A stretch of DNA of 64,000 bases, taken from the NCBI GenBank assembly GCA_001799845.1, contig MGUG01000041.1, forward strand, positions 1 through 64,000, written 5' to 3'. Below are positions 25,650 through 26,913 of this stretch, piece by piece. Each line of letters opens with the position of its first letter. Position 1 is the first letter of the stretch. The DNA comes from Elusimicrobia bacterium GWC2_64_44 (lineage in GTDB: Bacteria > Elusimicrobiota > Elusimicrobia > Elusimicrobiales > UBA9959). The position numbers and the translations under genes are program-made. Under the pieces are notes generated by a model. It was not told the origin of the DNA. It searched no databases and saw nothing but the letters and a program-made list of their open reading frames with translations.

Positions 25650-26657
<1,008 letters not shown>

Positions 26658-26667
26658 ATCTGATAGC

Positions 26668-26856
26668 GGAAGGAAGGCTGGCCGCTCGCTCATAAGCGGC
26701 CGTGGGGGAAGAGGGCCTGCGGTCCTCCGCCGGCAAAGAACTCGCTCGGCACACAGTGCCTCGCTCAAACATTCTTTGCCGCCGCCCTAATGATAGGCGG
26801 TCCGCTACGGACCTTGGCCCTACGGCCTAAAATCGCTCCCGGCCAGCCTTCCTTCC
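26668..26856. repeat. Nested multi-hairpin palindromic element (unclassified)
   Basis: This 189-bp intergenic block folds back on itself. A perfect 17-bp outer stem pairs 26668-26684 with 26840-26856. Inside, GGCCGT/ACGGCC (26698-26703 with 26822-26827), GGGCC/GGCCC, GGTCC/GGACC, the 10-bp CGGCAAAGAA/TTCTTTGCCG (26731-26740 with 26772-26781) and GGCAC/GTGCC (26748-26752 with 26756-26760) continue one long imperfect hairpin. Competing local hairpins are also perfect: GCCGCT/AGCGGC, CCGCC/GGCGG, GGTCCG-CTA-CGGACC and GGCC-CTAC-GGCC. The word CTCGCTC occurs three times (26685, 26741, 26760) and ATCGCTC once (26832), three of the four in or beside predicted unpaired loops. No ORF of interest lies inside. 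It could be a MITE/REP-like mobile element or a structured RNA. Confidence 0.75.
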
Positions 26857-26861
26857 TCGGC

Positions 26862-26892
26862 GCAAAATAAAGAACCCCGGGCCGTCCCGGGG
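26862..26892 (-). terminator. Terminator after the 221-aa zinc-ribbon gene
   Basis: On the minus strand CCCCGGG ACGG CCCGGGG is followed by TTCTTTATTTT. It ends the zinc-ribbon gene pair. Confidence 0.8.
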
Positions 26893-26913
26893 CTCTTCGC
26901 TTTTAAGGCGGCG

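Follow-up and report, generated by a model that had tools for sequence, protein, structure and literature searches.

In the window, by which we mean the whole stretch of 64,000 nucleotides that was analysed computationally, a large palindrome is present at positions 26668–26856. The nearest open reading frames stop short of it, nadA ending at 26657 and that for a zinc-ribbon protein extending from 26914, in accordance with an earlier reading, made from the sequence alone, which had reported no coding frame here. To the right of the palindrome, between the convergent nadA and zinc-ribbon genes, there is a terminator-like hairpin (26870–26903), and the palindrome thus sits between this hairpin and the nadA stop codon. 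The self-complementarity of the window confirms the outer inverted repeat that the sequence-only reading had described, which is perfect over 17 bp (26668–26684 and 26840–26856), and the long nested hairpin that it had proposed was borne out by folding. The predicted energy of 26668–26856 is -111.5 kcal/mol for the + strand (z -4.80 against 200 shuffles) and -114.1 kcal/mol for the − strand (z -6.75 against 200 shuffles), and none of the 200 shuffles was as stable on either strand. With DNA parameters the corresponding z-scores were -6.0 and -6.8, respectively. The counts given earlier for the repeated words also hold, CTCGCTC starting at 26685, 26741, and 26760 and ATCGCTC occupying 26832–26838, but by inspection these words are not chiefly located in loops: they face each other within one long stem, forming symmetric tandem TC/TC mismatches that correspond to tandem GA/GA on the − strand. 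Across the whole window, CTCGCTC shows no enrichment (11 observed versus 22.6 expected). The parts of the element that could be recognized in the window copy are listed below.

26668–26684, + strand: left outer arm, perfect in the window copy and of locus-specific sequence (self-complementarity)
26685–26839, − strand as the best-supported folded strand: conserved core, common to all copies (copies, wobble pairs)
26685–26691, + strand: CTCGCTC, left side of the outer internal loop, GAGCGAG on the − strand (pairing register by inspection)
26698–26703, unstranded: left side of the second helix, pairing with 26822–26827, with three co-varying pairs (alignment columns 34–39/184–189)
26712–26717, unstranded: left side of the third helix, AGGGCC, pairing with 26816–26821 (alignment columns 40–45/169–174)
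26731–26781, − strand: apical hairpin, CGGCAAAGAA/TTCTTTGCCG, with the conserved internal loop UGUYUGAG / CGAGUUC of the − strand (fold, alignment)
26749–26759, + strand: apical tip, GCACACAGTGC, shared with a second hairpin-repeat family (pattern comparison)
26782–26800, − strand: side hairpin whose loop, CUAUCAUUA on the − strand, is nearly invariant (stem pair 64/80 co-varies)
26816–26821, unstranded: right side of the third helix, GGCCCT, pairing with 26712–26717 (covariation table)
26822–26827, unstranded: right side of the second helix, pairing with 26698–26703 (covariation table)
26832–26838, + strand: ATCGCTC, right side of the outer internal loop (pairing register by inspection)
26840–26856, + strand: right outer arm, complement of the left arm (self-complementarity)

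A search of the window's own genome revealed 17 full copies and one truncated copy of this element. The cores of these copies are 78–100% identical to the query, and the outer arms have in every copy a different yet self-complementary sequence, those of the truncated copy being still perfect. When 84,980 species genomes were scanned with an exact pattern, matches were found only in records of the Elusimicrobia type and in three that are titled just "bacterium". Based upon a covariance model built from 36 cores, 18 of the 32 genomes of the genus carry between 1 and 18 matches, the other 14, several of which are more than 90% complete, being without the element, and other genera in the same family have 7–19 matches each. 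In a sample of 150 genomes from the phylum, strong matches were obtained in the same family only, together with two marginal partial matches outside it. The spread within this one Elusimicrobiota family is patchy, with 1 to about 19 copies per carrier relative. An 18-bp match at C6:18227, which lies within a Y1 transposase gene, was rejected as a chance match. No family in Rfam 15 reached its gathering score, the one match (SraB, E 3.2) being at chance level, and a limited search of the literature on Elusimicrobia repeats and palindromic hairpin repeats retrieved nothing relevant; the hairpin family thus appears to be undescribed. These results also bear upon the simplest explanation, that of a chance palindrome. 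Nothing was found in its favor, and in place of a single copy lacking covariation, multiple covarying copies were observed, which together with the fold z-scores argue against it. The copies refute this explanation, and its probability is in our view practically nil.

The folded structure was examined by means of RNAalifold using an alignment of 59 copies, read on the − strand. Two-sided changes, one or more per pair, were seen for 34 of the 61 predicted pairs, and four or more standard pair types were present at 19 of the 20 pairs of the outer stem. Between orthologous loci, 22 of the stem changes were two-sided and 18 one-sided. Wobble pairs in the stem, as read on the − strand, consisted of 58 G-U/U-G versus 10 A-C/C-A (26 versus 10 in the distal part and 32 versus 0 in the part adjacent to the core), a count that is derived from related sequences and does not constitute a formal test. 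This bias favors folding of the − strand, which may take place as RNA or as single-stranded DNA. Distant copies in four other genomes (G038, G041, G042, and G050) have mostly the same architecture, and conservation across genera is seen in a nearly invariant side loop and in an internal loop, where UGUYUGAG is opposite CGAGUUC. By inspection alone, the latter matches the layout of a kink-turn, an RNA feature in which a bulge followed by tandem G.A pairs is located between two stems. Selection could account for the paired changes in the stems, as could template switching, which has been proposed as a source of such changes (PMC8794818).

The strong covariation, the excess of GU over AC pairs on the − strand (58 to 10), and the near invariance of the side and internal loops across genera would all be consistent with a family of host non-coding RNA genes, in which the − strand would be transcribed, the kink-turn-like fold would have a cellular function and the copies would be gene duplicates. 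However, the flanks outside the stem contain no conserved sequence, and because nothing is conserved there such genes would be without a shared promoter. Additionally, in most cases the folded strand runs antisense to its neighboring gene, there is no Rfam match, and the family is missing from 14 of the 32 genomes of the genus, including several of more than 90% completeness. We consider this explanation unlikely. A related suggestion of the sequence-only reading was that of a structured RNA made after nadA. The structured single strand is supported by the covariation and the wobble bias, whereas its synthesis after nadA is without support because the best-folding strand runs opposite to nadA.

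The repeated unit consists of a core of ~150 nt and an outer stem of near-constant length (~20 bp), and the sequence information drops to zero immediately outside the stems; conserved flanking sequence was sought around the copies and none was found. Terminal repeats are present in all copies, but their shared consensus is only weak (identity between paralogs 0.53 versus 0.41 for shuffled sequences). For distant members the computation of arm length was unreliable because their core boundary is shifted, and the covariation table was used in its place. Target-site duplications, for which a search had been proposed, were not evident at the ends of the copies, the direct repeats there being no longer than those of shuffled flanks (mean match 1.68 versus 1.96 expected). 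At the orthologous nadA site, genomes G028 and G005 carry the element with arms that are nearly the same as those in the window, but the same site in G009 contains neither core nor arms. The sites of two other copies, L007 and L002, are also empty in several relatives. Because the nadA site of G009 lacks both parts, and in view of the empty L007 and L002 sites, the arms travel with the core. The idea that the stem is an inverted copy of the target was rejected, as no arm of any kind is present at the nadA site of G009.

The outer stem could also be host sequence, e.g., a terminator, if pre-existing hairpins serve as insertion sites for the core. Wholly unlike stems do surround cores that are almost identical, and in G005 the L008 site retains its outer stem around an inner part that belongs to a different hairpin family, both of which would be in keeping with this proposal. 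It is weakened, however, by the armless nadA site in G009 and by the near-constant length and weak consensus of the stems. Furthermore, bare palindromes (arms of at least 11, loops below 40) were found neither at the empty L007 site (G005 and G015) nor at the empty L002 site (G009). Insertion into existing hairpins is in our assessment very unlikely.

Some of the shared sites provide insights into the loss and gain of copies. At the L009 site, G028 retains a solo arm resembling the arm of G009, and this solo arm would be better explained as what a deletion left behind. In the window genome the arms at this site are unlike, with an apparent remnant of an older copy alongside, a combination that suggests loss followed by re-insertion. 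The unlike arms at orthologous intergenic sites (L009, L148, and L168), together with the solo arm in G028, suggest that copies were lost and gained repeatedly at a single place. At another shared site, the arms of L104 and L016 are similar, but the cores that they enclose are in opposite orientations. Current mobility is weak, because many copies are common to several species, in which they occupy orthologous sites.

With respect to genes, a gene 3′ end is found no more than 60 nt away for 64 of the 90 copies, the gene positions for these counts being those of a heuristic ORF caller; a location downstream of coding regions is also a characteristic of REP/REPIN sequences. When each orthologous group was counted once, with a limit of 150 nt, 36 independent groups had the left end facing the gene 3′ end, as compared with 10 for the right end (p = 1.6e-4). 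Due to this bias in orientation, it is usually the + strand that is sense to the adjacent gene, the strand that folds better being antisense. The biased orientation and the placement right after stop codons, as well as the many copies at orthologous sites, would also fit a fixed, non-mobile host element acting in transcription termination or in the protection of mRNA 3′ ends. However, neither arm is followed by a conserved T-run, the flanks being devoid of information, nadA already has the terminator-like hairpin at 26870–26903 downstream of it, and the presence of the element is patchy. We judge a fixed host element to be highly improbable.

The Elusimicrobia hairpin is like YPAL, ERIC, and REP sequences in its size class, hairpin form, and location. 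YPAL (RU-2) is a Yersinia palindromic sequence of 168 bp, which is similar in length, palindromic, not A+T-rich, intergenic and mobile on the evidence of empty and filled sites, with targets near dyad symmetry (PMC2229807). It has target-site duplications of 3–26 bp, whereas none were found for the Elusimicrobia hairpin, and the differences in stem from copy to copy that are a feature of the latter are not described for YPAL in the source text consulted (PMC2229807); the two are compared here by description. The bacterial MITEs ERIC (RU-1) and NEMIS are likewise gene-free intergenic hairpin repeats (70–300 bp), and ERIC affects mRNA stability in an orientation-dependent manner (PMC2229807; PMC3733652). 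Their terminal inverted repeats are defined, their termini are TA, and they show target-site duplications; in the Elusimicrobia hairpin, by contrast, the sequence of the terminal repeat is not fixed, and the search for duplications was negative. REP/REPIN sequences are extragenic palindromes that follow coding regions, the genes on either side being co-directional or convergent, and their folding as single-stranded DNA or RNA has been proposed (PMC3733652; PMC3116915). The Elusimicrobia hairpin is likewise an extragenic palindrome downstream of coding regions, but REPs are 20–40 bp long with a GTAG or CGTC tag, whereas it is ~190 bp long with no fixed end sequence, and no link to the Y1 transposase genes, comparable to that of REP/REPIN with RAYT, was found. 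With a unit of ~190 bp, no gene inside, and many dispersed copies, it agrees with bacterial MITEs in size and coding. We place it in none of the MITE/REP families, because fixed terminal repeats, target-site duplications, an end tag, and the RAYT link all fail.

Based upon these observations, the Elusimicrobia hairpin is probably a non-autonomous REP/MITE-like mobile hairpin, in which the fold of one strand is selected and the cores are homogenized by recombination. A non-autonomous element of the MITE/REP kind was among the possibilities that the sequence-only reading had raised, and it is backed by the multiple copies, the empty orthologous sites, the patchy distribution, and the location after stop codons. 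Core and outer stem (~150 nt and ~20 bp) would be inserted as one unit, which presumably moves as DNA, and the spread inside one Elusimicrobiota family would have occurred through a putative enzyme acting in trans. The copies would persist for the most part immediately after stop codons, at positions that may tolerate insertion. Selection would act on the fold of one strand rather than on the sequence of the stem, and therefore the stem of each copy would drift through paired changes, while the cores would be homogenized between loci via recombination, most likely gene conversion. Any copies that are transcribed may alter the 3′ end of the neighboring mRNA, by analogy with ERIC-type repeats. 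Among the copies fetched, none carried its own transposase (the genome is ~90% complete). No copy was found within 1.5 kb of the three Y1 transposase (Y1_Tnp) genes of the window genome, and across the 32 genomes of the genus the numbers of these genes and of copies were not significantly correlated (rho 0.25, p 0.17). In view of the absence of neighboring copies and of a correlation in numbers, a Y1 transposase/RAYT was rejected as the mobilizing enzyme.

The stems and cores of the copies were also compared between genomes. In 14 pairs with a stem identity of at least 0.7, the core identity was 0.926 for orthologous and 0.941 for paralogous copies. For the eight of these pairs that are from non-sister genomes, the cores of paralogs were closer than those of orthologs in all eight cases (0.940 versus 0.912), whereas the stems showed the opposite in all eight (0.881 for orthologs versus 0.503 for paralogs), a contrast that is partly circular because the pairs were chosen by stem identity. 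In 25 pairs taken without such selection, the identities for orthologs and paralogs, respectively, were 0.718 and 0.508 for the stems and 0.920 and 0.940 for the cores. Orthologous cores were no closer to each other than were unrelated cores drawn from the same genome pair (0.909). The cores of the window genome are recombinant, all four gametes being present in 72 of 91 informative site pairs, as is expected if copies recombine. Where orthologous copies have a stem identity of less than about 0.6, they may have been inserted independently into the same intergenic gap, and because sites with unlike stems may have this origin, the argument for exchange is limited to pairs with a stem identity of at least 0.7. 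Most of the genomes are MAGs, and consensus mixing inside a 150-nt repeat could mimic part of the homogenization; the locus-specific arms are intact at either end, which speaks against chimeric joins but not against such mixing within the core.

A somewhat different reading of these comparisons, to which we give limited credence, is that of a hairpin in two parts. The outer stem would stay with its locus by inheritance, and the core would be a cassette open to exchange, actively swapped or re-copied between loci by a dedicated hairpin-recognizing process and not by ordinary gene conversion. The core that is turned round (L016 versus L104) and the replacement by another family at L008 in G005 can be cited for it. 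If the explanation that we favor, a mobile hairpin with recombining cores, is right, a single small repeat would have two histories, the stem recording the locus and the core recording the genome, and sequence exchange among dispersed bacterial repeats would become measurable from ordinary genomes. The pattern of a locus-private stem with a genome-wide core could show how bacterial repeats exchange sequence, and the stem pairing, which has been kept through many double changes, would be useful for testing whether these changes originate from selection or template switching.

Other hairpin repeats were noted in the same genomes. A second hairpin-repeat family of the genus, with the tip GCACGGTGTGC, shares the apical tip with flanking GA, is intergenic and is found at some of the same orthologous sites, but it has a different core and is present also in genomes without the Elusimicrobia hairpin. 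The tip GCAC[GT]GTGTGC has 31 non-redundant occurrences outside the present hairpin family, compared with about 1.5 expected, and the loci of the second large-hairpin family include L068, L074, L205, L210, L262, and others. A small palindromic repeat, TGTCGCTNCGCTCCA, is located inside several hairpin elements (L013, L016, L017, L062, L110, L239, L262, and L270), forming a 23-nt insertion in some copies of the Elusimicrobia hairpin, with up to three per locus. On the − strand this repeat contains GCGNAGC, which is a very stable DNA mini-hairpin. Lastly, other long palindromes, with the ends AGGGGACGCT...AGCGTCCCCT, are present at L231 (the L007 site in G009) and L305 (the L002 site in G021); these sites carry the Elusimicrobia hairpin in the window genome, and the two long palindromes may be CGTC-type repeats.
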